DNA from: Cylindrodendrum hubeiense
Taxonomy: Eukaryota > Ascomycota > Sordariomycetes > Hypocreales > Nectriaceae
Direction: 5' to 3'
Length of the DNA stretch: 64,000 bases
Assembly (NCBI GenBank): GCA_014621425.1
Contig: JAANBB010000007.1
Location: 1 to 64,000 of the forward strand
Of this stretch, positions 2,321 through 63,740 are shown in pieces. The position numbers and the translations under genes are program-made. The notes beneath the pieces were generated by a model, which was not told the origin of the DNA, made no database searches, and saw nothing but the letters and a program-made list of their open reading frames with translations. The number at the start of each line of letters is the position of its first letter. Position 1 is the stretch's first letter.

Positions 2321-4666
2321 CTAATCTATCTTCGGCTCTCGACTGCTCGAATCCTCACCTCGTTTTATCTGTCTGATCAAATCCACACCAAAGGCCTCGG
2401 ATGCACCATCTTCAACCTGCTTCGTCCAAAAAACATCATTGCCAGTTACCAGGATCGACTTCCTCCGCTCCCTTTCAGCCACGCTCAACCCTAGCCCAGC
2501 CCGTTTGGTCGCTTCCATCTCTTCCAAATGCCGCACGCGGTGGGCGTACCGTTGGTTCCGGTCTTCCCGAATCCTCTCCGAACCAGCTTGGTGCAGAATA
2601 GACCGGACCAGTACACGGAGGAGGAGGAGCACATGTTCACTGATGAAGACCGTGACGGGCAACATGGCCCAGCTCCCATTCCCAAACTTATCCGCACTGA
2701 AGAGATGCACGATAGCTGCGGTGGAGATGCTGCCAAGCCAGGTGAGGGCATCGAGAGAGTAAATCCATGGACCGATGCCGTCAGACCGAACTGGGGCAGG
2801 CCGCTGGTGCTCAATGGATATCTTTGCAAAGTCTGACCGAAGTTCAATCCAATTGTTGATAAGAAAACCGATCGGGATAATAGGCCACACTGGAGAGAAC
2901 AGAGCCAGGTAACCGAACTGTAGGACAATCTCAGAGATGTCATCCTGAACATTGTAGAGAGGCAGAGTTGCCTCATTCCGGCATCTGGCTAGAAACTCAG
3001 CCTCATTGGGTTCATCGGGAACAATCGAACGAAGTGTGGCTTCCTGGGAACGAGACTCGCGGTAGTCGCGATACCACCCAGACAGCTTGTGCTTTAGTAA
3101 CGGCATGATATTCTCTTCGAAGAAGCTCGACAACTGCCCTGTAACAGTGAGGGCAATGACTTCATTTTTGAGCCTATCCGAATCGACTCGAAAAGGTACG
3201 TGGACGAACTTTTGTCCAACCGTAGCGAGAAGCTTTTGAAGAACGGCTTCGAGTCTGGGCACAACGTCATCGCCGAACGGGATGTAGATGAAGGCCGTAA
3301 GAAAGATTGGCAGATAGTTGGTGCACGTGTTGAGAACGAAGACTTTCTGGGTTAGCGACATTTCGTGCAGGTCCGCGGTGCGATGGTTTTCGAAGTCAGT
3401 CATCCACGTAGCAGCGTCTTCGAGCGCTGTTGTGATGTAGGGTAGTGAAACCGCCAGGAGAATTGTTGGCAGATATTCCTAGCAGCTGGTTAGACAAAAT
3501 TCCCACGAACTACAGTTGAGAGCTGAGTTGAGAGCCTACTAGATAGAATTTATAGGGACCGGCGTAGGTTTCTGATATCAGGATCTCGATGGCGAATACT
3601 GATACAATCGCAGTTCCAAGGGCAATCATTGCAAAGAGCAGAAAAGGGATTTGCAGCAGCTGTCGGCTGATTTGCTTCCACTTTGGAAAGTAGTAGTGCG
3701 TTCGGCCGCTTTTGTCAACGTAGGATTTGTCGTACTTGAATTGGGGCCGGGTGACCTTTACTTGTTGGATATTATTTACCCCCCATCGAAGACTGAGATC
3801 GACCTCGGTGATTTTCCAATACTCGAGAAACACGGCACACCAGACACTGGTGAGGATACCATATGCCAGGGAGTATCGAGGAAGCCAGAGCCATGCAATG
3901 ACACCCGTGGTGGCGGGAATGGACAAGAAGAGGAGGTAGGTCTGAATAAAGGCGAAATAGAAAGCCACCTGTAGACAAGATAAGTATGAATACAAAGACG
4001 CATAGGGATGTTTGATTCTTACCTTAGATCCGAGCAAATCCCGGATGGAGTCAAGATCCTCGGGTGCCAGGAAGATTCTCTTGCTCAGATGCCGGAGGAG
4101 GGATTGGTTGACTTCGGTATTGTGTAGCGGAAAGATGGATTTTACGCGCTCCCACTTGCCTATTCCTGGCGTGATGCCTGCACCGCCGAGATCCTTGGGC
4201 CAATTGACAAGATGGTAGACGGATAGGATATCTTCGGCTTCATAGTCTCCCTTGACCACGGTGTTCTTGTCTCCGCCGGGGTGATTGGGAATGATGCCGT
4301 ACAGCCAGTCCTTGACCCTACTCTTGATTAGCATTGACCTGTAGGAGTCATATGTGACTGTAACCTACCTAGATTTGTGAACAGCATGTCCGAGGAGCTC
4401 CCGGGGTGCCTTTACGAAGACGAGGAGCGATTGGTCATAGCCTGGTCTGACCTCAGTGTCAAGACCCGCCTCCTCCAGATCCTGCAGCAGAGTTTTGAAC
4501 TCATCAATAGCTTCATTATGGTCTGCAAAATATCAGGTGGGTTCATTGAGCGAAATTGAGCGAAATTGACAAGATACACACCTGCATCACCGAAATCATA
4601 CAGAACGACGTACTTGTCGTTGTACGTCGTTGGAGCGCGCTGCGGCTTTGCGTAGGGATGAGCCAT
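2321..4666 (-). CDS. TMEM16/anoctamin family protein (probable Ca2+-activated lipid scramblase)
   Basis: Five exons read as 4666-4582, 4522-4369, 4338-4023, 3968-3540 and 3478-2321, giving 713 residues in frame, close to the 735 of Nectria haematococca nhTMEM16. Family hallmarks are clear: a cytosolic N-terminal alpha/beta domain (about 1-185), then multiple membrane segments. The TM7-TM8 region carries DDxxE at residues 507-511 and NNWIELRSD at 536-544. D508, E511, E540 and D544 sit exactly +5 from nhTMEM16 calcium ligands D503, E506, E535 and D539. Acidic residues at 449-450 may supply the TM6 ligand. Characterised fungal members scramble phospholipids and some conduct ions; yeast Ist2 also tethers ER to plasma membrane. 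Scramblase activity is inferred from conservation of the calcium site. Intron phases all agree, so the model is solid. Confidence 0.92.
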
Positions 4667-6150
4667 GCCGATGTTCCGCGTCGCTAGCGTCGATAAGCCG
4701 ATTCAACGCGGGGCGTTCAGCCCAATGCAGACAGCGGTCCCTGGTTGACAAGTGGAGGGACGGGGAGGCGCGGAAACTGAAAGTGGTGGTGTTGTTGTTG
4801 ACACAGCTAGCCCGCCAAACGCATAATGTTGGCGAGAAGAAAGTTGATCGATTCCGGAGCAGAGATGTTCGAGTTCTACACGTAAGCCTCTCCACTCGCC
4901 AAGGACAACAATGGCGAGGCTCTATCAGCCCTAATGCTTGGTGGTGGACCGGCTGGCGGCTATCCGGCACGGCCTACACGGCACGTCGCATAGCCTCCTT
5001 GGCAGGTCTTAGAACGAGCAACATTGCTTCTTTGGCTTGTGCTCGACGAAAAACGGGGTTGTCGGGAAAACGGCAACCGATGAGGTCATGAATTCGGCAG
5101 GTCAATTACGATTGGAGTAAGTATGAATTTGTTCTAAAGATGCAGGTACCGTGCTTAGTATGGAGGCTCAAGATACAATGTTGATCATTTACGGGCCCCT
5201 TACAAGTTATGTCAGCGCCCCTCAACATCGCGCCAAGGCGTGCATCAGCACAGCCCAACCGGCTCCCGTATCAAATCTTTCGGTGCTGGCATTGCCAAGG
5301 CAATTGTCAGGATTGATTGAAAAAAATACAGTGGAACTGACAGGAATGTGATTGGTCATCCAAGCAAGAGGATCCGTATCCCGTATACCGATGTGCTTGG
5401 GTATTCCTCGAGAGAAAAGTGAGACAGTCACGGTAATCTCCGCCACTAGAGTATCAATCTCAATCACTTAAAGAGTACGTCCAGTATGTGTTAAGGCCAG
5501 ACTCCATGCAGTTGGCCTGGACAAGCATTTTCACCATCCTTGAAAAGCCTTCTAGACCGCATCCGGGGTCGGGATGAACTGGCGAATGGACACTCGTCAG
5601 TGACATATCAGTTTTTGACACCAACCAATTCTAAGAGATTTTGATGGGAGAGCGAGAGGACCTTACCTTGCTGAAGTAACACAACGGCGGTGATGTCACA
5701 AGCAAGCTGTCAAAATTGAATATTGCCGACTTGATGGGAACCCTCGGAAGATGCAGGCATAACGGTTGGGTGATGCAGCTTTGACTTTGGGATGTCGTAC
5801 CAGGCACAGTAAACGGCGAACTGTGTTCCGCTCATGCTATTTTAAATCACATGAAGCTTTTGTATCTCAGCGCCACCCTGCACTGTGATGGGAGGGGTAT
5901 CACCATGATAGTTCGAGCATTTCCAATTGAACCCTGCCGATCACTGACGATGACGTGTGACCAGCATCACACTATCACGAGATTGCGAGGATGACGCAAA
6001 GGTCACATTCATGTCAATAATATTGGTATATGAGAGCCATCCCCGCTCCCAATCGTACCTAGCGACCCCTCTGTCTCTCATCTATCGATAAATCAACCCA
6101 AGTACTCGCTGAAAATATACCAACCCACACAAGCTTGAGGATACATTATC
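4667..6150. other. Intergenic
   Basis: Divergent promoter space between the anoctamin gene and the small gene at 6151. Short open frames occur but none is convincing and no repeat or RNA gene is recognised. Confidence 0.5.
5893..6070. promoter_or_regulatory. Possible stress-response elements upstream of the small hydrophilic protein
   Basis: AGGGG lies at 5893-5897 and its complement CCCCT at 6066-6070, about 255 and 80 bases before the ATG at 6151. These match the Msn2/4-type STRE core. A 5-base core is frequent by chance, so this is only suggestive, though it suits a small hydrophilic stress-type protein. Confidence 0.25.
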
Positions 6151-19356: not shown

Positions 19357-21058
19357 ATGGGTGCTAAAAGCGAGGCTAACGTCGTCGCCCAGGACGTTAG
19401 CGGCGAAGGACCCGTTATCTCGGAAAAATATGCGGATATCACGCTGAGGATTGTCGAAGAACATGGCAAAGATTTTGGCCCATTGACTCCCGAAAAGGAG
19501 AAGAAGCTACGATTTAAGCTTTACTTGCATGTCATGGGTCTGCTGTCAGCCATTAACTTGCTGCTTTTTGTGAGATTGAGATACCCGATAATGCTATCAT
19601 CCGCTAACTAATTATAGATCGATAAATCCACTCTTGGATATGCCGCTATTTTGGGACTATTCGAGGAGACCGGCATTAGCAAGGCCCAGTACAACAATCT
19701 TGGCACTTTCTTTTACGTCGGTAAGCAATATACGGACATTGTCTAGCCCCATATCCCTCCGAAACTTTGGCTTACAATCTTCAATAGGTTACCTTGCCGC
19801 ACAATGGCCAGGCCACTATGCCATGCAGAAACTCCCTTTCGGCAAATTCGTCGCTGGTCTTGTCTTTATGTGGGGAGCCACAGTGCTGCTGCACTGCGCG
19901 GCGACAACCTACGCCGGCCTCGTCATCCTTCGATTGCTTCTAGGAGCGAGTGAATCCGTCGTTGTGCCGGCCATGGAGATGACCATCGGCATGTTCTTCA
20001 ATCGCCACGAACAGTCATTCCTCCAACCTTTCCTCTGGGTAACTTCGGCCGCCGCCCCAATTTGCGCCGCATTCATCTCATACGGCTTGCTCTGGAGCGA
20101 GAGCTCGGTCCTCCCCTGGAAGCTTTTCATGATTGTCACCGGTGGCATTTCAGTGCTGCTTTCTGTCGTTGTGTGGTTTTACTACCCAAACAACCCTGCC
20201 GAGGCGAAGTTCCTGACACTAGAGGAGAAAGTGCACACCATCCAGCGCGTCCACGAATCGAGCCAGAGTTCCATCGAGCAGAAGCAATTTAAGAAGGAGC
20301 AGTTTATTGAGACCCTCCGCGACCCCGTCTCATGGCTATTCTGCCTGCAGGCCTTTACCCTCATGCTGTCGAACAACCTGACCTACGGACAACAGAACTT
20401 GATCACCGTCGCCCTCGGCGTCACGAGTCTGGGCTCGACACTGGTGGCTGCTGCAGGTGGCGGATTCGGAGTTCTCGTCTGCCTTGCTGGAACCTTTGCT
20501 CTTCGATGGTGGCCCAAGAACCTCGCTCTCCATGGACTGGTGTGGTGTATACCCGCCATCGCTGGTGGCATTGGCATGGTCACCATAAGTTGGGATGCAA
20601 AGCTTGGGATGTTGGCATGCCTTCTCCTGGCTGGCCATACATATGGAAACACTTACATCATCGCTCTGGGTTGGGCCACGTCTTCTGCAGCGGGCTATAC
20701 CAAGAAGCTGACACGTAATGTCTTGTTCATGGTCGGCTACAGTGTTGCGAACCTGATTTCGCCCCAGATTTGGGTGCCAAGCGACGCACCCCGCTATTAC
20801 GGAGCCTGGGTTGCGCAGATCGTCATCAGCTGGGTCGGCACACCTGTCATCCTGTTTGTGATTCAGATCATCTTGAAGCGCAGAAATGCCGAGCGCAAGG
20901 CGTGGGAGGCTGGTTTGACCGAGGAGGAGAGGGCAAGCCATCAGCTGGGAGAGGTTGAGCAGCTGGATGAGGGCGGTGTTCTGGTCCGCAGGAAGGTTGA
21001 CATCGCCTTGTTGGATCTCACTGATCTGGAGAACCCGTTCTTTGTTTATCCTATTTAG
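19357..21058 (+). CDS. MFS transporter, anion:cation symporter family (Dal5/allantoate-permease type)
   Basis: Three exons (19357-19569, 19618-19720, 19788-21058) give 528 residues. Met 19357 has a strong context (AAAATGG). The cytosolic N terminus with [17 protein letters not shown] precedes TM1, where [20 protein letters not shown] is typical of the Dal5 branch (D-K position after TM1 and the GL-EE-TG segment). [21 protein letters not shown] after the second intron and [15 protein letters not shown] in TM4 are also family signatures. The tail is acidic and ends ENPFFVYPI, also seen in relatives. The family carries allantoate, ureidosuccinate, dipeptides, nicotinate-like acids and other anions, so the substrate cannot be fixed. 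Two introns fall early, the common arrangement for the family. Confidence 0.92.
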
Positions 21059-21945
21059 GATGGAAACAAGAATTTCATTAAGAGCGTTGCTATGCGCAGG
21101 CACACCAATACCTATTTGCGCACAGAAGAAGAGTTATGAATGCTAGTAATAATAAATTGCACTATCTCTTACAATTAAGGATTAAACTAAACCACCGTGA
21201 TATATGTTGTTAAATATTGTGTTTATGTTTGTTTAACTTACTTTATGCTTATTTTCAACTCCGTTACCTTCCTGGTGTCTGATGCCTGCGTTTATCAATG
21301 GCAATACTTGTTCCTGCGGATATCGGCACGGTTAATTGTGACTCGTTTTCTAGGCCCCGTTGTTTCGAATCATGCATGCATCCCACCGTTTCACATTCTC
21401 TTGAACAGGAGGCCTCACTTGGCAGCGCCGACTCGTGTATGAGACATCTCCAAGCGGCTAATCTAGTTATGAATGCGGTGTAACTCCCGTAGGGCGACTA
21501 GTGGGCTGACATAGTGTCCGTTATTGGGTATACTGTCGAGTTTAGTCGCGAGGTCATGCCAAGAAAATGACCACAGTGACTCCGCCACATCACTGCTGCA
21601 CGTCAACCCCGGGAATACGAATGCACGGTAGCCATCCGATTGATCGGCAGCCAACAGTTTGCTCTCAGCTCTCCTGCTGTTCGGCGTCAAGCATTCTGAG
21701 TGGTTCACATCAGCCTCGCTACAACTGTTGCATGGCTTGTGCGCGATTTAATTAAGCTTACCTCGTTGAAAATGATTTCCCTATTACCATGTGTGACGTG
21801 TTAACCGACGCCCCGCGCCATAGTCTACATGAATGAGGTTTGTCGCCCTGCTATCCCTGCTGCATCTTAGACATCATATATTTATCAGAAGGCCGACCCC
21901 GCGTTCACCTCAGAATGGCTCGGTCCACCCCATGATTCAAGCACA
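21059..21945. other. Intergenic
   Basis: Contains no recognisable gene. AT-rich just after 21120. It ends with the promoter and leader of the GH16 gene. Confidence 0.5.
21915..21935 (+). promoter_or_regulatory. Short upstream open reading frame before the GH16 gene
   Basis: An ATG at 21915 starts a six-codon frame ending in TGA at 21933-21935, ten bases before the main ATG at 21946. If transcription starts upstream of it, this uORF could dampen translation. The transcription start is unknown. Confidence 0.35.
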
Positions 21946-23079
21946 ATGTTTTCCTTGCCCGTTTTGCCTTCATGCCTGCTACAGCTAGTCGCAATCGTTG
22001 CTGTAGCACGCTGTGCTTCACAGCTCGTTAATGATGCAGACTGCGACTGTTTTCTTATCAACGGTTCGGTTCCGACATATTATTCCAACCACATGTTCTT
22101 CGACTTTCGGTCTCTCTCAGAGTACGCTGGCGTCCCTGATGTGAGAACAAATTCATCAACGGCATACTTGGCGCCCGCGTCAAGTGATTATTTCAAGCAC
22201 GACAACTGGACCGACGTTTGGGATATTCAAACGTGGGACAACAGCTATGGGCCAGGCGAAGGGTTATCGAACGATGCAGGCGTTCTTATGGTCAACTCGC
22301 GGAGCAACGTCTTCATTGACACAAATGAAGATGAAGGTGCCGTATCCGGCACATTTTTGACGTTGCGAACAAAACGTATCCGAGGCTTCCAAACTGCGTC
22401 GGAATTCCAAAGCGTCAAGAACAATTACCGATTTGTTTCCATGCGGATGTTGGCAAGGACTATTGGGGGCGCCGGGGCGGTAACAGGCATGTACACTTAT
22501 CGGGACGAAAGCGGCGAGCTTGCCGACATCCAAGAATCCGACGTTGAGATTTTAACCCGCGGTCCTCGGGATAAAATCCAATACACGAATCAGCCGTCTT
22601 ATACAGATGAAGGCGGCGACATCCCGAAGGCGACGAGGAATGCCACCACGCCAGACTGGTCAAACTGGGTTGTCCACCGCCTTGACTGGACCCCCGACGT
22701 GGTGAAATGGTACGTCGACGGAGGGGAGGTCGCAAGCATAAAGTTTCAGACGCCAAAAGATGCCGTCGACCTTCATTTCAGCGCGTGGAGCGATGGTGGC
22801 ACATGGAGTGGCAATATGTCCATGAACCATGAAGTTAACCAGCAGATCCAATGGATTGAAATATTGTATAATACCACGACTGAGAATTTGGTCAAGGAGA
22901 ACTTTTGGGATCGGAAGCGCGCCGAAAGTACGTGCAAGACAGTGTGCAGCATTGATGAGACAACCGACGCAGGCCACGCAGTTATTTTTTCGGCGGCCGT
23001 CGGCGTATCTGATGGCCGATTTGGAGGTTGCACAACTTGGATAATAGCCATAATAGTGGGAATTACTCTATGGATTTAA
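21946..23079 (+). CDS. GH16 family beta-glucanase/transglycosylase, secreted, likely GPI-anchored
   Basis: Intronless, 377 residues. Signal peptide (hydrophobic 5-22) is followed by a Cys-rich start (DADCDCFLING). The GH16 catalytic motif is E197-S-D199-V-E201 in the context DIQESDVEIL, with E197 the nucleophile and E201 the acid/base. The substrate-cleft Trp-rich segments WSNWVVHRLDWTPDVVKWYVDG and FSAWSDGGTWSG follow, as in fungal cell-wall GH16 members. Several N-glycosylation sites (NGS, NWT, NAT, NMS, NTT) occur. A Cys pair (TCKTVCSID) near the end precedes a hydrophobic C-terminal segment (TTWIIAIIVGITLWI), consistent with a GPI signal or membrane anchor. Probable role is remodelling of beta-glucan or attachment of chitin to glucan at the wall; the exact acceptor is unknown. 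Confidence 0.9.
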   Translation: MFSLPVLPSCLLQLVAIVAVARCASQLVNDADCDCFLINGSVPTYYSNHMFFDFRSLSEYAGVPDVRTNSSTAYLAPASSDYFKHDNWTDVWDIQTWDNSYGPGEGLSNDAGVLMVNSRSNVFIDTNEDEGAVSGTFLTLRTKRIRGFQTASEFQSVKNNYRFVSMRMLARTIGGAGAVTGMYTYRDESGELADIQESDVEILTRGPRDKIQYTNQPSYTDEGGDIPKATRNATTPDWSNWVVHRLDWTPDVVKWYVDGGEVASIKFQTPKDAVDLHFSAWSDGGTWSGNMSMNHEVNQQIQWIEILYNTTTENLVKENFWDRKRAESTCKTVCSIDETTDAGHAVIFSAAVGVSDGRFGGCTTWIIAIIVGITLWI

Positions 23080-42119: not shown

Positions 42120-43686
42120 ATGTCGGCTTCAGACGAAAAAGGCCAGCCGCACGACAATACGCCTGCCAAGTCGGCCAGCGACGCTGTTGTTTCAAGAGGC
42201 CATGAGACCGACAGCAGCTACGATGATGACTTGCCACCGAAGACGTGGAGGTCATACGTCTGGGACACCCTCGACAAGCCCAAAGCAGAACGCCGCTTCC
42301 TCCTCAAGCTCGATTCAGTAATCCTCACATTTGCCTGTTTGGGATACTTTATCAAGAACTTGAACCAGATTAACATTAACAATGCCTATGTGTCTGGAAT
42401 GAAGGAGGATCTCAACATGGAGGGAAATGAGCTCAACTATATGCAAACCTTGTGGACAATCGGTTACGTTCTTGGAGAAATCCCCAGGTAAGTGAAACTG
42501 GCACGGGAGATTTCGATCTCATGATTTGAGGTAACAGAAACTCCAAACTAACCCGTGTACTAGCAACTTGCTGTTGACGAGGATCCGGCCCTCACTGTGG
42601 ATTCCGGCATGCGAGGTCACTTGGTCCGTCCTCACCATTGTCATGGCCAAGTGCACCAATGTCAACCAAATTTATGCTCTCCGCTTCTTCATCGGACTCG
42701 CTGAAAGCACCTTCTATCCCGGAATGCAGTACATCATTGGCTCATGGTATCGAAAAGATGAGCTTGCCAAGCGATCGTGCATCTTCCACGCTAGTGGATC
42801 CGTTGGCTCCATGTTTTCGGGATATCTGATGGCTTCGGTCTACCACCTTGACGGAGTGCACGGTTTTAAGGGATGGCAATGGCTCTTTATCATAGACTGT
42901 GTCATCTCACTCCCGATTGCCATCGCCGGATTCTTCTTCTTCCCAGATTTGCCTGAGATCACTCGAGCTTGGTATCTGACCAAGGACGATATTGCACTAG
43001 CGAAAAAGCGCATGGACCTCGAAGGCCGGGCAAACCGCTCTCCGTACACCCTTGCAAAGATCAAGAAGATCTTTTCCAGCTGGCACATTTATCTGCTTAC
43101 GCTGCTCTACATATTCTTCAACAATGGATGTGGTGCATTGTCCCAACCTGGTTTCCAGCTCTGGTTGAAAGGTCAAGGATACAGCGTCTCTAACTACAAC
43201 ACCTACCCAACCATCACATCGGCAGTCACCGTCCTCACCACGCTCATTTATGCTTGGAGTTCGGATACCATTTTTAGGGGCTCGCGATGGCAACCAATTG
43301 TGTTCTCAGGGACCTTGCTTACTGTCTTCTATTCGAGTTTGACAGCCTGGAATATCCCTGATGGTTGGAAATGGGCTTGCTTTATTCTCGTCGGATTGGG
43401 CGGAGGAATCAGTGGTCTTACCTTTGCTTGGGCGCATGAAATTTGCAAGGATGACAACGAAGAGCGCGCTCTCGTGGTCGGATCGATGAATGAGATGGCC
43501 TATGTGTTCCAAGCTTGGCTGCCCCTGCTTATTTGGCAGACCGTCGAAGCCCCACGATATCCAAAGGGTTATCCGACCATGGTGGGATTTGCAATTGCAA
43601 TGGTCGCCATGGCGTTTATCATTCGGTTCTTGCATAGAAATGAGTTACTGGCAAAGAAAGCTGCTGCTGCTGTAGCGGAGAACTGA
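42120..43686 (+). CDS. MFS carrier of the Liz1/Fen2 pantothenate-transporter type
   Basis: Two exons (42120-42487 and 42564-43686) give 496 residues. The N terminus is long, acidic and cytosolic, followed by [50 protein letters not shown], the diagnostic TM1 region of Fen2/Liz1-like anion:cation symporters. [49 protein letters not shown] and [19 protein letters not shown] follow in the expected helices. Residues QPGFQLWLK and [23 protein letters not shown] are also subfamily features. Fission-yeast Liz1 and yeast Fen2 import pantothenate by proton symport; other members carry biotin, nicotinate or tartrate-like acids, so the substrate is not certain. Located in the plasma membrane. Confidence 0.92.
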
Positions 43687-44503
43687 TCCAGAACTTGATT
43701 CCTGCGATTGAGTCACTTGTACTAAGAATAAAAAGATAGTCATACTCCTAGACAACCTGAAATGGGCTGGTGAGCGTATAATGACATAAAAAGTAATAAT
43801 CTTATTTTATCAGTATCTAAGGATCCAGTTCGATAAACACAATGACTTTGCATTTGGCGCGATGCAAAGTGCTTGCTAGACATCGATCTCAGGTTCAACA
43901 GTAGAATAATTCACGAAGATACATATTTATCATTCGGAAGGAAGTAATGCGCTGTAAAATTGTCTTTACTGGTTGCTGTAGTTATGTGGCGCTGTGTCAT
44001 AGATCGCGAATGCGGCTAGCAATTTTTAGGTTTCGCAGAGTTCCCATGTTATTACTTCATAAGGAACCATATAAACCAGCCCATTTCAACAGAACAAACT
44101 ATTAATCTCGTTTCACACCATTCACAATATCTAAGGCGTCAGCATGCATCTGTGGGCGCATTTATGGGCCGAGGGCGTTGTGAAATAATTTTCGGGATGA
44201 CGTGCTTGAGATGCCCACTAACGCCCTTGTTTGGCCAGCCTGGTGTGCACGTTACAAATCGGAAGAACCCATTATGGGGAAACAGGAAACCACGCATTCG
44301 GAGCCGAGCGGGAGGACCTTAGACTCGTAAGATATGGTGTTAGATTACAACATCCGCTTTGGCTCACTTTTCCCTCATTATATCTGCCAGAGTCCCTCAC
44401 TACACGACAAGAATGATCATACCAAGCTACCGATGAAATTGAGTGATCCGACGCCAAATACCTCACTTATTTATTCATAAACCAGAACGATTGAGTCCTT
44501 CAA
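43687..44503. other. Intergenic
   Basis: Between the MFS gene and the flavin monooxygenase gene. AT-rich around 43720-43820. Nothing else recognised. Confidence 0.5.
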
Positions 44504-46096
44504 ATGAGCACTCATCAGACCAACGGCACTTCGCCGGCCGTGCCTGGACCTAACAAGTTTGGTCCGAATACCAAGGTAGCCGTCATTGGTGCTGGAGTTA
44601 GCGGAATAACTACTGCAGCGTACTTGTTGAAGAACGGTGTCGATGTGACCGTATTCGAGCGATCTGGACTTACTTCCGGAGTCTGGCACTACGACTCGAA
44701 AGCGCCAAACAGCCCGAGCTATCCGAGTGTGGCACCGTCGGCCGGTGACTATGAGATATCTAAGCTTGGCCAATTTTTGCCCACAAAAGCACCTGCGGCT
44801 TCTCAGAATGGGGACCACACTCACCCACTCGACAGCGACGATGCGGAGGCACGACGGATTGCTTTTTCGCCTCCCGGTCCAGCTTACGCCGGGCTGAGGA
44901 ACAACGTACCGACGACTTTGTTGTATAGCAGCCTTGGACCCTGGCCTCAAGGCACGGAAGATATCACCGGACACAAGCAGATTAAAAGCTATCTCCAGGG
45001 CCTTAGTACTCAACATGGTGTTGACGATGTGACTGTCTTCCATACGCGCGTTGACGACGCGAGGAAGTCAGATGACGGCAAACACTGGAACCTCCGAACG
45101 GTTACGCTGCTCAAAGGGGATGGATCACCTCGGGTTTTGGAACGCACCTGGCAGTTTGACGCACTAGTCATCGCATCCGGACACTACAACTTGCCCCGAA
45201 TCCCCGACACCCCCGGACTGTCAGAATGGAAGGCTCGATATGGCGACCGCATTCTTCACACGAAGGAATACCGTCATCCCGAAGCATTCAAAGACAAAAC
45301 GGTTCTCGTTATCGGTGGCGGCGCATCAGCAATGGATGTGTGCCGTGAGTCAACCGCAACGGCAAAGAAAGTCCTACAGAGCACAAGAGGCGGCGAATTC
45401 GATCTGCCAAAGTCCATGTTACCTCCATCAATTGAGCACCTCGGAGGCATTGAAAAATTCGAACTCGATGCTGAGGTTACGAAAACTAGTGAATTGGACC
45501 CAGCAGCTCCAATTCAAGGCAAAATCGTCTTGGCGGATGGTCAAGTCGTTCGAGATATTGATTATGTTGTCTTGGCAACCGGATACTTGACCTCGTATCC
45601 TTTCTTCCCACAGTATCACGCAGACAGTACTGACATTGACGCCGTAACGCCGGATATTCTTGTCACATCAGAAGGAAATATGGTGCACCATCTTCACAAA
45701 GACATCTTTTACATCGAGGACCCCTCACTGTCATTTATCGGAGTTCCTTACTACACGGCAACCTTTTCACTTTTCGACTTCCAAGCTCAAGCGCTGGCGC
45801 GATTATACTCGGGGAAGACGACATTGCCGAGTCGAGAGGCGATGAGGGCGGATTATGAGAAGCGAGTCGCCGCTACTGGGCGAGGACGTGGGTTCCACAG
45901 CTTGGCTGTGGACGGAGCCGAGCCTGATTACATCAAGGACCTTTTCGCCTGGGCCAATGGAAGTCTTGTAGATGACAAGACTGAACCTCTGAAGGGACAC
46001 ACGGATCAGTGGCTGGAAACGTACTGGGAGGCAAGGGAGACGAGAAAGAAGCTGAGGGAGAGCACTGGCAACCACCCAGAGGCGAACTGGCCATGA
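44504..46096 (+). CDS. Flavin-containing monooxygenase
   Basis: Intronless, 530 residues. The FAD-binding Rossmann motif is VAVIGAGVSGI (G29, G31, G34). HTKEYRHPEAFKDKTVLVIGGGASAMD carries the FMO-type motif region and the NADPH-binding GGGASA. DYVVLATGYLTSYPFF is the conserved ATG-containing motif near the C-terminal half. Length and order fit class B FMOs rather than Baeyer-Villiger enzymes, whose FxGxxxHxxxWP fingerprint is absent. It would oxygenate soft nucleophiles (N or S) of small molecules in the cytosol or at the ER. The neighbours (an MFS carrier and a carboxypeptidase) do not suggest a biosynthetic cluster. The ATG at 44504 is the first in frame, with A at -3. Confidence 0.92.
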   Translation: MSTHQTNGTSPAVPGPNKFGPNTKVAVIGAGVSGITTAAYLLKNGVDVTVFERSGLTSGVWHYDSKAPNSPSYPSVAPSAGDYEISKLGQFLPTKAPAASQNGDHTHPLDSDDAEARRIAFSPPGPAYAGLRNNVPTTLLYSSLGPWPQGTEDITGHKQIKSYLQGLSTQHGVDDVTVFHTRVDDARKSDDGKHWNLRTVTLLKGDGSPRVLERTWQFDALVIASGHYNLPRIPDTPGLSEWKARYGDRILHTKEYRHPEAFKDKTVLVIGGGASAMDVCRESTATAKKVLQSTRGGEFDLPKSMLPPSIEHLGGIEKFELDAEVTKTSELDPAAPIQGKIVLADGQVVRDIDYVVLATGYLTSYPFFPQYHADSTDIDAVTPDILVTSEGNMVHHLHKDIFYIEDPSLSFIGVPYYTATFSLFDFQAQALARLYSGKTTLPSREAMRADYEKRVAATGRGRGFHSLAVDGAEPDYIKDLFAWANGSLVDDKTEPLKGHTDQWLETYWEARETRKKLRESTGNHPEANWP

Positions 46097-49564: not shown

Positions 49565-52500
49565 ATGACAACCCTTGACATTGTACAGACGGGACGAGCC
49601 CGAGCTCGCAAGCTTGTTCAATCTATCGCAATGGGTCGAGGATATGTTCGACAAGAAACATGGGAAAAGCTGAATCGCTTGGATGGAGACGCTCATGAAG
49701 AGATTCAATCTGCATTCAGCGGCATTTTGGAGTCAATCGGTAGTGTTGTGTCCACGTGAGATTGCGGCCTGATTTATTACTGATTCTTGGTCTAACATCA
49801 TTTATAGATTGGCTAAAAACCTTTACACAAGTCATGCGCAATTTGTGTTCGAGCTTCTTCAGAATGCAGAAGATAACTACTTTCAACGCGCTGAGGAACA
49901 AAACCAATTGCGGTACGTCGAATTTCGAATGTTTCATGATCGTATGGTGGTCGACTGCAACGAAGATGGGTTCACCGAAAATAACCTTAGAGCTATCTGC
50001 GAGGTGGGCAAAAGCTCCAAGATAGGATCTGAAGGGTATATTGGTGAGAAGGGTATTGGCTTCAAGTCAGTCTTCATGGCAGCGTGGAAGGTTCATATCC
50101 AGTCTGGGGATTTCTCCTTTTCTTTTCAGCATCGTCGTGAAGAGTCAGGTCTCGGCATGGTCACCCCGATTTGGGAGAACCCTAGTGAGGATGTACCGCC
50201 CCATCTCACTAGAATGACTCTTTACTTCCACCAAACCGAGGATCCGCAAGTTTCATCCACTCAACGGGAGACGATACGTCAACAGCTCAAAGACTTGCAA
50301 GGGGATATCTTGTTGTTCATGCGTAAACTCCAAGAAATCCGGATATCAATCTTCGACGAAGAAGGGAATGATCAATATTCTGCGGTTCTCTCAGCAAGTG
50401 AGATTGGCCTGAGTCGTGTCACGGTGAAGAAGGCGATAAATGAAGACGGGAAATCAAACTCAACGACGAGGACATATCACGTTACCAAACATGTTGCGGG
50501 AAACCTCGCGAAAAATGAGAACCGGAACTATTCAGAGTACGAGGAAACGACAAAGAAGTACTCGACAGCCCGTGTTGTCCTCGCGTTTCCACTCTCTTCC
50601 GATTCTACGCCCATCATTCAGCCACAAAAGGTTTTTGCGTTTTTACCGGTTGATTATAGGGGATTCTCAGTAAGGAACCTAAACGCATTTACAGACACAC
50701 AACTAATTGCTTAGTTCCTAATCCATAGCGACTTTGTCACGCAGGCGAACCGGCAAGGTATAGGAGTGACTTCGGCACGTAATCTCAGTCTTCTTCACGG
50801 TATTGCCGATGCATTCATTGAAACCGTCTTGCAGCTCTGCAAACACCCCACTCTACAGTATACCTGGGTGCGATATATCCCACTCAAGAAAGACTATCCA
50901 TTCGATGCATTCTGGTCAACATTGGTCACCATGATTACCTTGAAGGTGTATACGACACCCCTATTGCGGCCTCGAAGTGAGGGCCCATTGCGATCTATTA
51001 CGGAACTTCGAAAGCCTAGGCCATGGCATTTAGATTGTTTTGGCGATCTTCTATTTGAAGATTTGAACCCAGAAATCTGTCTTTCACAAGGCTATGAGGA
51101 CAGCGATGTTGAAATCCTCGAAAACTTTCAACTTTGCTTCCTTCGACAAAAAGATCTAATCAAAATGGCAGAGCGAGATTTGAGATCAGAATCATCCAAA
51201 ATGAGGTCCAAAACCACCGAAAATGATTGGCATACAAGAGTCGCGTCGATCTTTATTTCAGTGCTTGACAGTCCCGTTATTTCGGAGAAACTGAAATCTA
51301 GGGTTCGAAATATGGCTCTACTACCGCTCCAAGATGGAGATTGGGTTGCACAAAGCACCGATCGCGACGTCTACTTTGCCGAAACTGAAGGTGTCATGAT
51401 TCCTCATACGCTTAAGTTTAACCTCATATTGTCGTCAGCAGCAGAGAACTCTACCCGTTTACGTCTCTTCGAAAAGCTTGGAGTTCAAAATTTGCACGTC
51501 GTAGATGTCCGCCTAAGAATTCTCCTGTGGGGGGATACAGATTCCGGAATTAGACGATTTGGCTGGACGCCTGAAACCTATGTTCGCCATATGAAGTTTC
51601 TATACTTCACGCACCATCGCAAATCTGTTTTATTTGAGACAGGGTCCGAAATGCGCTTTGTTTCACAAGGCGGCAAAGTTCAACTACCTTCCGTTACGGA
51701 TGTTTACGTACCAGACTTCAATCCATTCGGCCCCATGCTACTTTTACAGCCAGTAAAAGCACATGATGGATTCGAAGGGGCACCCGGGTTGCATGTGAAA
51801 TTCGTTCACAAGCTATACCAATGCACCGTGGAAAAGCCCTCACAAGATTTCATTTCTTGGGAAGACTGGTTGGTCATGTACGGTGGCTTACGGAAGGCAC
51901 TGAGACTTACGGATGACGGCGCCCTTGATTTGTCGGATGCGTGCTATTATGTGGCGAAACACCGCCCAGACAAGTTTCTAGGCTTTCTCTGCTATCACTG
52001 GCCTGAACAAGGGAAAGGAATTGAGAAGAAGACGCTCCTGCAAAACAACCTGAAAGTTCTCGAAGTTCTATGCCAAGGTGGCCAAATGGTGAAGTTGTCA
52101 GAGACTTATCTTCCGTTTCCAGATCTCCGTTCGCAGTGCACGAAATTTCTGAGAGAGAATGAAAGATTCCCATTTCTTGAACTCGAAGGGTCTCTGGAGC
52201 GAGATACCTATTCAAAGGATTGGGGCTTTCTGGTGCGATGGCTCGGAGTAAATATAGAAGAGGGTATCGAATTTTACCTGACTATGTTGACCCAAATACG
52301 TCAGACAGATGCCGGCAAGGTTGGAGATTGCCGGAGAATCTTCGAGATTTACAGGATCATTTATGGGAAGTGCATACAGTCCGGGTTTAACCCCAGTGAC
52401 CTGAAATCTATCCAGTCGGTTTAATGCCTCTGTGGATTCAGTGCGAAGCTAACTTGTTTAGGGAACGCTTTGAGAGTGAGAAATTGATTTACGTTCCTGA

Positions 52501-55185
52501 TTCGAAAAAGCAAAAAGCATGCTGGACTGGGCCCTGGCTATGTGTTTGGGAAGCACCGCCTATTCTTGAGTCCCAATATTCTCTTCAGGCGCGCTTCGAG
52601 GAAGTATTTGCCGATCTACCATCTCGATCACTTGATATATCCCTTTTCTTCACCCAGGTCCTCAACATCTCGAATTTGGATTACTTTGATCTTGTTGAAG
52701 AACTTAGGATGATGTCAAAAATGTTTTATTGTGACTTTAACCAGATTCATGACCTGTACAGGTATCTTGATCGAATGGTTCATCAACTCTCTCCTCTTGG
52801 CTGTAAATTTATCAAGTACGAGTTCCATTATCCGGGTCTTTCTATCCTGGTGACTGACTTGCATTCACTAGAAATTATTTCAGAAGTATGGAGATGATAT
52901 ATGCCGAGAATGAAGTGGAAGCCGGGTGGTATCGAATCCCAGAATGCCTATGGTCAAGTGAGACTGAAATCAAAGGACGAATGACTTTGGATCACCACTA
53001 CGAAGATTTATACGATCTATTTGTCGAATTCCTCGGTGTCAGCACTCTGAGCCTTGAGATAGTTTGCCAGGAACTGGTGGGACTAGGTGCTTCGTCTGCA
53101 ACAACTGTCGACCAGGTAACTGCGAGCATATGGGCCCTGAATTCTTTTCTATCAGATACAACCCAGCCTCCCGACACGACAAAATTGTGTGAGGGACGAA
53201 TTTTCCCGGTTCGATACCCAGACGGGAAAATTGAGCTCGGGAACGCTACGTCAGACTTCGTCATTGTGGATCGTTTGCACCTCGGAGCAATCTTCCAGCC
53301 TCTTGTGAAAACATTGCATTTCACCTTTGAAGAAGTCCGAATCCTAGCTCCTACCATCAACTGGCTTGGGCTTGGAACACGATACTTGTCGGTCGTGATC
53401 AAGGAATTCACCAAAGTTGAGATCTCTGACAGAATCCCGGTCTCACATCCTGAACGTGAAATTACGCCAAAGGCACATGCGCTTTACAGGTACCATCACT
53501 TAAGCCCCGAGAAATGTTGTACAAGGAACTTCGACTGATCAGTGGCCTAGAATTGCATATCATTTCAACAGTCCTAGACTCCAAGTCACCGGCAAGCTCT
53601 ACGAGACCCTCAAGGATGCTCGAGTTTATGAGACAGATGGAATTTCGTCAAGACTATATCTTTGGCAAGACGGCAAGGAATATTCTCACGAAATTAGTCG
53701 GAGTGATTTGCATATCAACGAAGACAGTTCGCCACTGGAGATTTTTATTCCGCGAAGCAGGAGCAAACAGGAGTCATGTTATGCACAGAGACTCCCGTCT
53801 CGTATTTTTGAATGGTTGATGACCGATCCGGTAACGCAAATCTCCGAGAAGATTGAGGAAAAGGGCCTGCGAATCACAAGTACCATCCTCAACTCGAGCC
53901 GTGCTGTGATTCCAGAAATCCTCGAATACGAGGGGATTGCTCTTGGTGACTTCAAAGATGATTTTTCCGAGCCCGAAGATGGCTATCAACCAGAGCAGGA
54001 AAATCCCGGTAGTGTTACTCCCGACGACTCGAATGCTCATCTCCTCAGGACTCAGACACGCACTGAAGCAGAAGGCGGTAGAGCGAGTCTATTGACAAAC
54101 TCGACAACTTCAGATACGACAGACCAAAGCCCTTTGCGTACACCAACAACATCACAGAGCATAAACCACTCTCTCACAGGGGCTCAATCCTTCACGGCGG
54201 AGCGCCAAGGGGGGCCTCACGCCGAGTCACCTAGTGAGCGGAATGGGGGTCATGTGTCCCCATCACCTCAATTTTGGAATGGAGCCGATTTTCGCGCGGA
54301 CCAATCACAACAATCCTACGCCGAATACACTCATGCAAGAAGTGACTTTGCACATCGCTCTGCGTCTCGGGATACGTCCCGTCCAATCCTGGTTGATAGT
54401 GAGACAGACCGTTATGTGAAAATACTTAGAAGAGTCGTGAGGGCTGCCCGAGCAGCATCATTCCCATCCCAAGGATCCTTCGACATGACCGGAATTTCGG
54501 ATGCCCTGCCTAGAATCGAAGTGGAGAACAGCTACGATGGGCTTGAACAGCCTCCTCGTTTCCGATCCACGTCTCAGCTGGAGCGTGACAAGAAAATCGG
54601 GGCCGCCGGCGAGCTTTACGTATGTATTCAGGGACATTATCATTGCGCTCCGAAATTCTAATGGTTCTGCAGGTATTTGAGCTTCTGAAAAAGTTGGCAC
54701 TGCCTGGCTTCTCGATGGCAAACTGGCAAAGCACCATTCGAAAATATGTCGTTGAACATCCGGAATACGCTGATATCGTTTATGATGATGCCAATGGAGC
54801 ATTCACCAAGCTGCTCGTTGAGAATGGTTATTTGAACAGGGAGGTGTGGGACCACAAAAAGCCCCATTACCTCCTCGAGGTTAAATCCACCACTGGCCCG
54901 TGTAATACTCCGTTCTTTATGAGCAAGGGTCAATACCGCAGGGTAAGTTGATCAAATTGGAGTAACTCATTTCACGATTGAGAGCTAACCAAGCGACAGA
55001 TGCACACCTACCGGGAGAGTGTGGACACAATCTACATCATTTTGCGAGTGTTCAATGTCGACAAGGACTCTGTTAGGGTGAGAGTATTTGTCAATCCTGC
55101 CAAGTTAGAAGCATCCAGACATCTCCTATTCACGGCGGAAACATGGTCTATTGTACCGGGGAATGGACATGTACCTAGAGCTTAG
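49565..55185 (+). CDS. GHKL ATPase - NOV_C (DUF3883) fusion protein, 1745 aa
   Basis: Eight exons (49565-49755, 49808-50669, 50715-52414, 52462-52815, 52884-53489, 53551-54619, 54673-54942, 55000-55185); all phases agree. Residues 64-300 form an Hsp90/sacsin-type GHKL ATPase. The N box has E79, N83 and D86 in FELLQNAEDN; a G1-like box DCNEDGF lies at 113-119; the G2 lid GEKGIGFKSVF at 143-153. A long middle (300-1290) has two repeats of the kind LIYVPD...W...C(V/L)WE/S followed by IRE-like helices. Residues about 1340-1500 are Ser/Thr/Gln-rich and disordered. The C terminus (1585-1700) is a NOV_C domain with GAAGELYVFELL, Asp1628/1632 and LLEVKST (E1663, K1665), an arrangement like PD-(D/E)xK nucleases. 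Relatives include plant NO VEIN and many uncharacterised fungal proteins. Nuclease activity is inferred. Confidence 0.88.
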
Positions 55186-59466: not shown

Positions 59467-61169
59467 ATGGCGCAGAGAGTCAACGGGAATGCCCACCTCA
59501 CGGCTGACATCGACTTCATCCGCACTCCCCCGCCTGCGCAGGATACGCTGGGGACCGGCAAAGATTGTGGAGTGAGGATCACCGATGTAAGTTTGCCCTA
59601 GCACGCTCCGCTGCGCATGTAGATCGCCACTAACAGTCTCCAAGTCGCCCGCCATCAAGAATGCTCCTCTCCCCGCGGACGGCCCCGGATACGAACAATT
59701 CTCGAACGCGGCCCTCGCCTTCGGGCTCCTCGGAATCCCAACATGGCTCTCCTGGCAGTTCAACGGTGGTCTGAAGCTGACCATATTCTTTGGTCTCTTC
59801 ACCGCGGCCCCCATCCTGATAACCATCTGGACCTTCTTTTCCACCGTCAGTCCACGACTGAACGACACTGTGAAATTGCCGGGCCGCCCGGTCGAGTACT
59901 ACTTGAAGTTCAAGAAGCCCATTGACCAGGCACGGTGGAATGGACGGCACAAGATCCCGATGCAGACGTTTTTCGAGCTGTACTTTGAGGGCGATGTCGA
60001 CCTAAATGGCGATTGCCTTGAGGTATTCGAGTATCGACACGATTGGGCCAAGTTCAACTTTACGCTGGACCTCTTCCGATACATCTTCTTCAACTTCGCC
60101 CCGGATGTCATTTTCCATCATCGATCCCAAGATGAGGACCAAGTCCGTCCCAACTACGACCGCGGCAACGATCACTACGCATGGTTCCTCGGCCCTCGAA
60201 TGATCTACACATCCGGCATCATTTCTGACCCGTCTCGTGAGGAGACCCTAGAGGAGATGCAAGACAACAAGATGGCCGTGGTCTGCGAGAAAATCGGGCT
60301 CAAGCAAGGCGAGACCGTGCTGGATATTGGCTGTGGGTGGGGAACGCTGGCCAAATTTGCGAGCGTCAACTATGGTGCCCAGGTTACAGGCGTCACTCTA
60401 GCCCGCAATCAGACCGAATGGGGAAATGATGCGCTCAAGAATGCTGGTATTCCCCAGGAACAAAGCAGGATTTTGTGCAGCGACTATCGCGACATCCCGG
60501 AAACCAAGTTTGACAAGATCACCCAGCTGGAGATGGCCGAGCACGTTGGCGTTCGCAGACTGACGACATTCTTCCGCCAGTGCTATGACATGCTGGAGGA
60601 CGATGGATCCATGTATGTCCAGCTTTCTGGGCTGCGAAAGTCATGGCAGTACGAGGACTTTATCTGGGGGTTGTTCCTCAACAAGTACATCTTCCCTGGA
60701 GCCGACGCATCCACGCCGCTCAGCTACTATGTGGGCTGCCTCGAGAGCGCTGGATTTGAGATCAAGAGGTAAGAACCCTGGGTTTTAAACAGGAAACTGG
60801 CTAACTTTGTTCCTCAGCGTTGATACTGTTGGTGTCCACTACTCTGGCACGCTGTGGAGGTGGTACCGCAACTGGCTCGGCAATGCCGACAAGATTAAAG
60901 CTACCTATGGTGTAAGATGGTTCAGGGTATGTTCTCCGCCAGCCGTTGGCTCCGTCCACGCTAAACTAGTCTAGATTTGGGAACTCTTCCTCGCCTATTC
61001 TACCATCGCCTCGCGCCAGGGCTCAGCCACCTGCTTCCAGATTGTGGTCGTCAAGAACCTCAACTCGACCCACCGCGTTGACGGCATCTCGTCGCAATTC
61101 GGCCTCACCGGCGCTCTGGAGGCGAGCAAGGCCGGCCGCACAGCCCCATATCCTGTTTTGAAAGCTTAG
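59467..61169 (+). CDS. Sphingolipid C9-methyltransferase
   Basis: Four exons (59467-59586, 59645-60768, 60818-60926, 60975-61169) give 515 residues, the usual size. Two N-terminal membrane helices (about residues 56-75 and 82-105: LAFGLLGIPTWLSW, IFFGLFTAAPILITIWTFF) are followed by RPVEYYLKFKKP. A cyclopropane-synthase-like SAM domain follows, with VLDIGCGWGTLAKFA at 265-279, VTGVTLARNQ and the ITQLEMAEHVG motif. VHYSGTLWRWYRNW and SRQGSATCFQIVVVKN close the family pattern. It methylates C9 of the 4,8-diene sphingoid base of glucosylceramide, a fungal-specific step affecting membrane order, hyphal growth and defensin sensitivity. It acts in the ER membrane. The final intron is short but canonical. 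Confidence 0.95.
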
Positions 61170-62057: not shown

Positions 62058-63740
62058 ATGGCCACCGCCGAGTCCCCTCCACACGGCCCCGACCAGGGCG
62101 CGTCGATGAGCGAGGAGCAGGAGAGAAAGTAGGCGTCTCGCGAAATCCGGGTCAATTAACGGCGAGAGACTCACACGTGCCGACAGGAAGCTGCGGAACC
62201 GCCTCTCCCAGCGGGCTTTTCGCCGCCGGCAGGCGGAATGCATCCGGGAGCTGCGCAACCGGGTCAATGTCGACCAGCGGCCAGATAGCGAGCGGGTAGA
62301 GGCACTCCAGCAGGAGAATAGCCGCCTCCGGAACCAGCTCGTCGAGGTGCAGAGCAAGCTGGGCAGGCTGCTAGCCACGGTGCAGTTGCTTACAGACTCC
62401 GTGGCTACGACGCTCGACGGAACGGATGCCGACGAGGCTAAGGATAGTGGAAGCGAGGCCGCAATACCGACCAAACCTGAATTTCAGCGTAGAAACAAGG
62501 CTCGGGGGAAGCGGCCTCGATCAGAAGACCACAAACTGCCGCTATTAGATATCACCGATATTACGGAGTCGGTGGAGACGTCAGTCCTTAGCTTTCGCCC
62601 GTCGGTTACCCCAGATGCCATCGATAGTAAGTTTATCCAGCTCAGCAACCGTAGAGAAGTATCTCACATCAAGACAGAAACTAGCTTTCCTGGGCCAGGC
62701 ACGGTCATATCTGACCCAGGAACCCTGTATCAGCAAATACCCAACATTTGGTCCTTCGAGTATCAAATGGGTCTAGATCCATATATGGATGCCATCACTG
62801 CATCCCACCATTCCAGCATGATGCTTGGCAAAGAATGGATCCACTCCAACTCTCCATTCTCAGACCACATCCATGTTCTGCAATGCCTTCTCAAGGACAA
62901 ATTCAGCATGATGGGCATTTCTCCCGGGCTGCAGGGTCCAATCCAGAGGTGATTAACGCAGAATTCCTTGTCTTGGGTCCGTGCTGATGTCTCGATAGTC
63001 TTTACCAACCGGTCCTGATGGTTCTCTCCATGTTCAACAGCATGACTAGACCCGATGTCATGGCTTGGTACGCGAAGACGCGTTTCTTCCATATCATCGA
63101 ACTCACCGCTTGGCAACTCTATCCTTCGATCGGCACGTTCGAAAAGCTCCACGAGAGGTATCGGCCAACCGAGGTGCAGATGAAGAACCAGTACCCGCTG
63201 GTTATTGACTGGATCCCCTTTCCCTCTATCCGAGACCGGCTCATCCAACTCCACGCTGCCAATCCCCAGATCGACCAGATTTTCTGCGACGCCGTCACCG
63301 GCTACGTCGTAGAGGCGCTCATGTGCGACTTGATCCTTGGTGCGCCGACCGCCAAGGTTTATATCCGCGTCACCGATCTAATCACGGCCATGTCGTCCAC
63401 GTCGCCATCTGCCGACCGCCAGCCCGGCAACGGCGTGAAGCTTCCGGCCCCGGATGTCACGTCGCTCTTCAGATCGCCCGAATACGCCGCAGCCGCCTTC
63501 AAGTACCTCAACATGGACCGGGGCGCCTCGTACTACAAAATAGACCCGGCCTTCTTCGGCAAGTATCCAGAGCTGTACGACCCGACCAACCACATGACTG
63601 CAAGCGGAATCCCTTTGAAACCAGACATGCAGACCTGCCTCACATATCCAAAACCGCTTAATACCTCGACTGTGGAGACATATCGCAGCTTTATTCACTT
63701 TTCCATTGACGCCGCCAACAGCATTTCGGTCATTGTTTGA
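62058..63740 (+). CDS. bZIP transcription factor with DUF3425 C-terminal domain
   Basis: Three exons (62058-62128, 62187-62948, 62999-63740) give 524 residues. The basic region straddles the first intron: KKLRNRLSQRAFRRRQAECIREL has the N-x7-R signature with RLSQRAFRRRQ instead of the Ala-Ala pair, followed by heptads through ENSRLRNQLVEVQSKLG. The middle is acidic and Ser-rich with an NLS-like KARGKRPRS. The C-terminal part (about 280-420) matches DUF3425: WHLTAWQLYPSIGTFEKLHERYRPTEVQ-like spacing, QYPLVIDWIPFPSIRDRLI and DLILGAP/AKVYIRVTDL segments. Such bZIP-DUF3425 proteins are common in filamentous fungi and mostly unstudied; a few control stress or secondary metabolism. The target genes are unknown. 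Confidence 0.9.

Follow-up and report, generated by a model that had tools for sequence, protein, structure and literature searches.

Does a fungal protein which joins an Hsp90-type ATPase to a NOV_C domain belong with sacsin and the plant protein NO VEIN, or with a prokaryotic defence system? This question is raised by a gene of Cylindrodendrum hubeiense found in a window of 64,000 nucleotides (nt), the whole stretch of DNA that we have analyzed (contig JAANBB010000007.1, positions 1 to 64,000). The gene lies at positions 49565-55185 of the forward strand, and the splicing of eight exons gives one open frame of 1745 amino acids. As shown by sequence comparisons, the protein has an N-terminal Hsp90-type (GHKL) ATPase domain, a long middle region, predicted to be mostly helical, and a C-terminal NOV_C domain. 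The initial annotation had already described a 1745 residue protein joining a GHKL ATPase to NOV_C; our re-spliced model agrees with it in length and numbering, and E79, N83, D86, E1663 and K1665 are all found at the residue numbers it gave. The profile comparisons described below show that the gene belongs, as a fungal representative, to the TmtA family of prokaryotic anti-phage proteins. TmtA is a PADLOC name, and we take it to be the Tiamat protein.

Relationship with prokaryotic TmtA proteins

The PADLOC model PDLC03972 (TmtA) matches the window protein with 260 bits (E 1.2e-77), the best stretch covering residues 58-416. TmtA models are also matched by all 24 fungal relatives and all 31 prokaryotic proteins which we have scanned. 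The prokaryotic proteins come from one scan of genome contigs: 299 were confirmed and the best 80 of these retained, 46 had complete frames and 31 of the 46 were aligned. When the fungal profile is compared with the profile of these 31 members, 1123 columns are aligned (E 1.7e-101), and the alignment extends to residue 1371. Taken separately, the ATPase and segments 441-740, 741-960 and 961-1240 each match prokaryotic profiles, segment 1241-1377 alone matches neither of the two prokaryotic sets, and the NOV_C segment matches only the set picked for its NOV_C ends. These comparisons show the ATPase and middle region to be collinear with prokaryotic TmtA, and the NOV_C domain to be common to part of the TmtA members. 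Pfam finds SACS in 30 of the 31 prokaryotic proteins and NOV_C in 19.

Judging from these sequences, the C-terminal part of TmtA members varies, a usual situation in conflict systems. Nine other prokaryotic C-termini, taken as one set, show no match with the fungal NOV_C (probability 1.4), and a set of six others gives a partial match (probability 81.6). In one archaeal TmtA (L007:7848-12626), the NOV_C part is in frame after the ATPase-plus-middle part, with one stop codon between them.

Controls were run because TmtA models might match any GHKL ATPase. The same genome contains a separate sacsin-type GHKL protein, C789 (in L119), with the motifs ELIQNAADA and GAFGVGF. Comparison of the 24-row fungal profile with the C789 sequence gives a probability of 2.4 (E 0.019), versus 99.6-100 (E 2e-23 to 1e-63) with six single prokaryotic relatives. 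The window protein and C789 are alike only over some 100 residues within the ATPase core. The likeness to sacsin that had been noted therefore holds for the SACS ATPase core, but TmtA is much nearer to the protein than the sacsin-type protein of its own genome is, and "sacsin/NO VEIN-like" is not its best name. A kinship with prokaryotic conflict systems had been suspected in general terms; it can now be narrowed to TmtA/Tiamat.

In a tree of 89 ATPase rows (74 prokaryotic and 15 fungal), the fungi form one group (100/100) with a long stem of 1.31. They join 11 rows of a TmtA clade, mainly from Pseudomonadota, plus one archaeal row, weakly (85/62). When C157, a divergent copy from the same genome, and C334 are added and 8 rows are left out, the fungi group with C157 (100/98), and the 11 bacterial rows named above are joined to them with 98/95. 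Both trees are unrooted and long-branched and cover prokaryotes and fungi, so that they give no direction or route of descent.

In the bacterial clade nearest to the fungi, a gene for a UvrD-type helicase (about 570 amino acids) lies directly downstream of TmtA, overlapping or touching its 3' end, in 9/9 loci: L002, L009, L013, L018, L025, L028, L032, L042 and L053, those of the 11 in the clade which have a complete TmtA frame. Eight of these nine helicase genes contain a NERD nuclease domain, according to Pfam. Tiamat in this clade thus looks like a two-gene unit, and the adjoining UvrD/NERD gene would indicate nucleic acid as its target.

Gene structure and sequence features

All introns are GT-AG and have sizes of 45-68 nt in the splice model. 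The model is least certain at intron 3 (52415-52461), whose donor is GTCGGT, and in the placement of intron 4 (52816-52883). Matches to homologue P0001 are spread over all eight exons. The main features are the following:

49565..49755, + strand: exon 1, residues 1-64, from the splice model; P0001 match at 49580-49756
49808..50669, + strand: exon 2, residues 64-351, core of the GHKL ATPase; Pfam SACS PF25794, TmtA PDLC03972
49851-49874, + strand: E79/N83/D86, in exon 2, conserved in fungal rows
50043-50063, + strand: GEKGIGF lid, residues 143-149, in exon 2, conserved in fungal rows
50715..52414, + strand: exon 3, end of the ATPase module and first half of the middle region, residues 352-918, collinear with prokaryotic TmtA
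52239..53046, + strand: duplicated modules A (about 860-970) and B (about 971-1090), from hhalign self-comparison; span includes introns
52462..52815, + strand: exon 4, last part of module A and first part of module B, residues 918-1036, from the splice model
52884..53489, + strand: exon 5, end of module B and more of the middle region, residues 1036-1238, from the splice model
53551..54619, + strand: exon 6, last part of the middle region, linker and start of NOV_C, residues 1238-1594
53969-54577, + strand: Ser-rich, poorly conserved linker, residues 1378-1580, in exon 6
54578..55167, + strand: NOV_C, PD-(D/E)xK nuclease-like domain, residues 1581-1740; span includes introns
54611, + strand: GxxGE of NOV_C, with E1592, in exon 6
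54673..54942, + strand: exon 7, NOV_C core, residues 1595-1684, including Q1681; 11 residues missing before D1628
54772, + strand: D1628, in exon 7
54877-54885, + strand: E1663/K1665, in exon 7
55000..55185, + strand: exon 8, last part of NOV_C with the stop codon, from the splice model; homologue match at 54667-55161

The ATPase domain

Pfam scores the ATPase of the window protein as SACS (PF25794, E 5.3e-9). Conservation was followed in an alignment of 109 fungal rows: the window protein plus 108 homologues, which remained of the 120 listed after 12 had been dropped for length. The N box (E..N..D) and the GxxGxG lid are 97-100% conserved in these rows and are present in 31/31 prokaryotic rows. 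With the profile of 24 fungal relatives, Hsp90 structures are retrieved (best E 0.0015), and those of TRAP1 and sacsin are retrieved weakly; the prokaryotic profile retrieves a sacsin structure at 1.9e-10 and, at 2.4e-6, TRAP1 (Heat shock protein 75 kDa).

The second ATP motif is not standard. In Hsp90 this motif is DxGxG, and its Asp is the adenine-binding residue. The fungal motif at this position is CNE(D/N)GF, with Cys114 in 109/109 rows; the prokaryotic TmtA motif is mostly NNExGF, with Asn in 29/31 rows. Only the last Gly of the Hsp90 motif is kept. CNE(D/N)GF and NNExGF are a possible family signature of TmtA-type ATPases; since NExGF is common to fungal and prokaryotic rows, it supports the TmtA kinship. 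The ATP site had been called intact-looking, a description which is correct for the N box and the lid; the presence of Cys114 instead of Asp in the second motif was overlooked.

Middle region, linker and NOV_C domain

The LIYVP..W..C(V/L)W modules reported in the middle region are real, and they number two (about residues 860-970 and 971-1090). Profile self-comparison (hhalign) of modules A and B gives a probability of 98.7 (E 4.1e-16), with at most 3.7 for the other 14 segment pairs tried. Whichever of the two modules a segment contains, it matches one prokaryotic stretch (at 821-901 or 849-930, depending on the set); the duplication thus seems to have been added in fungi. The linker at 1378-1580, which had been described as Ser/Gln-rich, is richer in these two residues than the protein as a whole (13.8% and 6.9%, versus 8.3% and 4.4% protein-wide). 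It is the least conserved of six parts of the protein, with 16% identity.

Pfam does not find NOV_C in the window protein itself at E<=0.1. PF13020 is matched at this threshold by 14 of the 24 fungal relatives, and the fungal NOV_C profile clearly matches the prokaryotic one. The key residues are strongly conserved in the fungal rows: E1592 (109/109), D1628 (108/109), D1633 (109/109), E1663 (106/109), K1665 (108/109) and Q1681 (105/109). Taken together, the key residues of the ATPase and NOV_C are 96-100% conserved across the 108 fungal homologues. Structure prediction for a fungal NOV_C homologue gives a fold like that of PD-(D/E)xK nucleases, with the alpha-beta-beta-alpha-beta core, and this nuclease fold is predicted for the domain. 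The nuclease-like end proposed in the initial annotation is upheld in both respects: The fold matches are nucleases, and the six residues named above are constrained instead of varying freely.

Distribution in fungi and copies in the same genome

A database search gives 1672 proteins at E<=0.001; among the best 120 of them, 118 are named, and by our reading these are all ascomycetes. The genome of C. hubeiense (an assembly of 47.5 Mb in 798 contigs) contains at least eight related loci. The window copy, C275, C334 and C157 have ATPase, middle region and NOV_C. C189 (L114) has ATPase and middle region, with no match to NOV_C. C24, C479 and C777 have the middle region only, covering about the same stretch. 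Nine further database members of this middle-only type, besides those of C. hubeiense, are found in a listing without full-length proteins; two of them are 76% identical over the whole query, so the type looks retained and not debris. C777 (L113:1-3269 and 3803-5958) lies directly downstream of a frame which, judged by eye, resembles a NACHT-WD40 NLR.

In the sets shown, copies from other genera are found together with the window copy, C189, C334 and C275 (supports of 99, 99, 90 and 99), so these duplications are not recent. The branch of C157 is too long for it to be placed in these sets. C157 (L115) is a very divergent paralogue which branches outside the other fungal copies; its ELIQNADDN box looks bacterial, its lid is GEKGIGF, and its NOV_C contains EVK.

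The neighbours of the gene in the window (2321-4334, 19634-23079, 42568-46096, 59870-60772 and 63018-63740) include, according to Pfam, an anoctamin, two MFS transporters, GH16, an FMO-like protein, a CMAS-type methyltransferase and DUF3425. Two of the ten neighbouring open reading frames (ORFs) scanned have no Pfam match.

Possible function

The most likely function is, in our opinion, ATP-gated nuclease defence. We would give roughly an even chance to the complete proposal, a fungal TmtA member which works as an ATP-gated clamp-nuclease in defence. ATP binding would close a dimeric clamp, and the helical middle region, enlarged by the module duplication, would sense the trigger. Candidate triggers are foreign or aberrant nucleic acid and viral or transposon proteins. 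Closure of the clamp would then position, release or license the flexibly tethered nuclease, which would cut nucleic acid. The service rendered is likely to be cell-autonomous defence against viruses, transposons and other non-self nucleic acid.

The closest tested precedent for such a mechanism is VcSduA (Shedu type I-D, formerly paraMORC3), an analogue in its working. PMC12137116 (section 12) describes a GHKL ATPase, a middle domain which modelling suggests to be clamp-like and a C-terminal PD-(D/E)xK domain, with the same proposed logic, in which the ATPase controls the nuclease; E27A and K557A each abolish phage defence. Its nuclease family, on the other hand, is DUF4263. MORC and paraMORC proteins are also GHKL ATPases, with links to nucleases and restriction systems according to PMC2292703, which describes a MORC-specific S5 motif and reports that MORCs are absent from fungi. 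TmtA itself shares with the fungal protein the collinear ATPase and middle region, NExGF and, in part of its members, the NOV_C end. In contrast, the fungal protein is eukaryotic and its gene has introns, the middle module is duplicated, a poorly conserved linker of about 200 residues precedes NOV_C, segment 1241-1377 by itself does not match the two prokaryotic sets (although the full alignment reaches 1371), Cys replaces the prokaryotic Asn in the second ATP motif, and there are middle-only companion genes.

Several observations weigh against a defence nuclease. A review (PMC12926258) lists Tiamat among the systems of unknown mechanism. The TmtA models are not fully specific, C789 also matching TmtA (58 bits, E 8e-17, residues 104-196). 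Pfam does not find NOV_C in 12 of the 31 prokaryotic TmtA proteins, and the TmtA clade nearest to the fungi has a different C-terminal end. At the DxGxG position, the window protein has CNEDG (within residues 114-119, exon 2); since the adenine-binding Asp is missing, ATP binding is not a given and the use of ATP is hypothetical. The GHKL fold assignment stands, because the other motifs and the profile matches support it. As for the nuclease, Foldseek alone gives no match to the NOV_C fold at E<=0.001, its weak rows include non-nucleases (Rep15, cohesin), and the structure-comparison Z is below 8 for the fold matches. The window copy, alone of the 109 rows, lacks 11 residues directly ahead of D1628; among those missing are a W that 102 rows retain and an E that 106 retain, and the gene model has no intron at this site. 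Its putative nuclease may thus be altered or dead, and the family can be a nuclease while the window copy is not. P0010, the nearest relative of C189, has QVK instead of EVK, as has P0011; one related subclade (C189, P0010) seems to be losing its nuclease. Finally, the window neighbours with Pfam matches are metabolic, transport or unknown genes.

The protein might instead be a nuclear housekeeping factor of the plant NO VEIN type, whose ATP-driven clamp would serve the maintenance of chromatin, RNA or the genome, defence having been lost or never present in eukaryotes. NO VEIN is a developmental factor with an Hsp90-type ATPase and the domain which NOV_C is named after; we liken it to the window protein by its description. 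ATPase-bearing copies are found in sets common to other genera, as for retained genes, and a 2025 survey (PMC12409356), which calls for more work, places 100% of the Tiamat systems in its plant-associated metagenomes on plant sequences. However, a multi-copy family with truncated and nuclease-degenerate relatives would be more like a conflict family, and its closest prokaryotic relatives are scored as defence genes; we regard a NO VEIN-like role as unlikely. Quality control by a chaperone of the sacsin/Hsp90 kind, with NOV_C as a structural or RNA-binding part only, would agree with the Pfam name SACS and with the profile matches to sacsin and Hsp90/TRAP1 structures, and the non-standard second motif would fit a poor nucleotide binder. 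We consider this role quite improbable: The nuclease residues are conserved as strongly as the ATP site, and what the window protein shares with sacsin is the ATPase core (PF25794). It has one SACS match and a nuclease-like end, Pfam finds no further domain in it at E<=0.1, neither DnaJ, HEPN and the repeated SRR units of sacsin nor a ubiquitin-like domain, and it resembles C789 only in the core.

An executor of allorecognition or cell death, comparable to heterokaryon incompatibility genes, whose nuclease would attack the cell's own nucleic acid after contact with non-self, is in our view the least probable of these alternatives. The multi-copy family and the position of C777 next to an NLR-like frame point to it, as do the clustering of sensor and executioner genes in fungi reported in PMC12881547 and the idea of fungal defence islands raised in PMC10197012, but no NLR-type neighbour is found among the ten window ORFs scanned and the single NLR adjacency may be due to chance. 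As an extension of the defence reading, filamentous ascomycetes might keep an expanded, Tiamat-derived immune family, with full-length sensor-executioners and standalone middle proteins serving as adaptors, decoys or brakes, which together would be the counterpart, in fungi, of bacterial defence systems; this is rather doubtful.

In summary, the initial observation is confirmed, and its interpretation is partly supported: It is strengthened as regards the kind of protein, not its function. We have found no link between fungal NOV proteins and Tiamat in the literature searched, and sacsin, NO VEIN, GHKL, Tiamat and HSP90 are not named in the main text of two reviews on fungal immunity and cell death (PMC10197012, PMC12881547). 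If our proposal is true, a bacterial anti-phage protein family persists in ascomycetes as a multi-copy gene family. The kinship with TmtA makes a defence role in fungi directly testable, with exact residues. It would also make Tiamat, a system of unknown mechanism according to PMC12926258, accessible from the eukaryotic side, and may explain the matches of Tiamat models on plant DNA described in PMC12409356.

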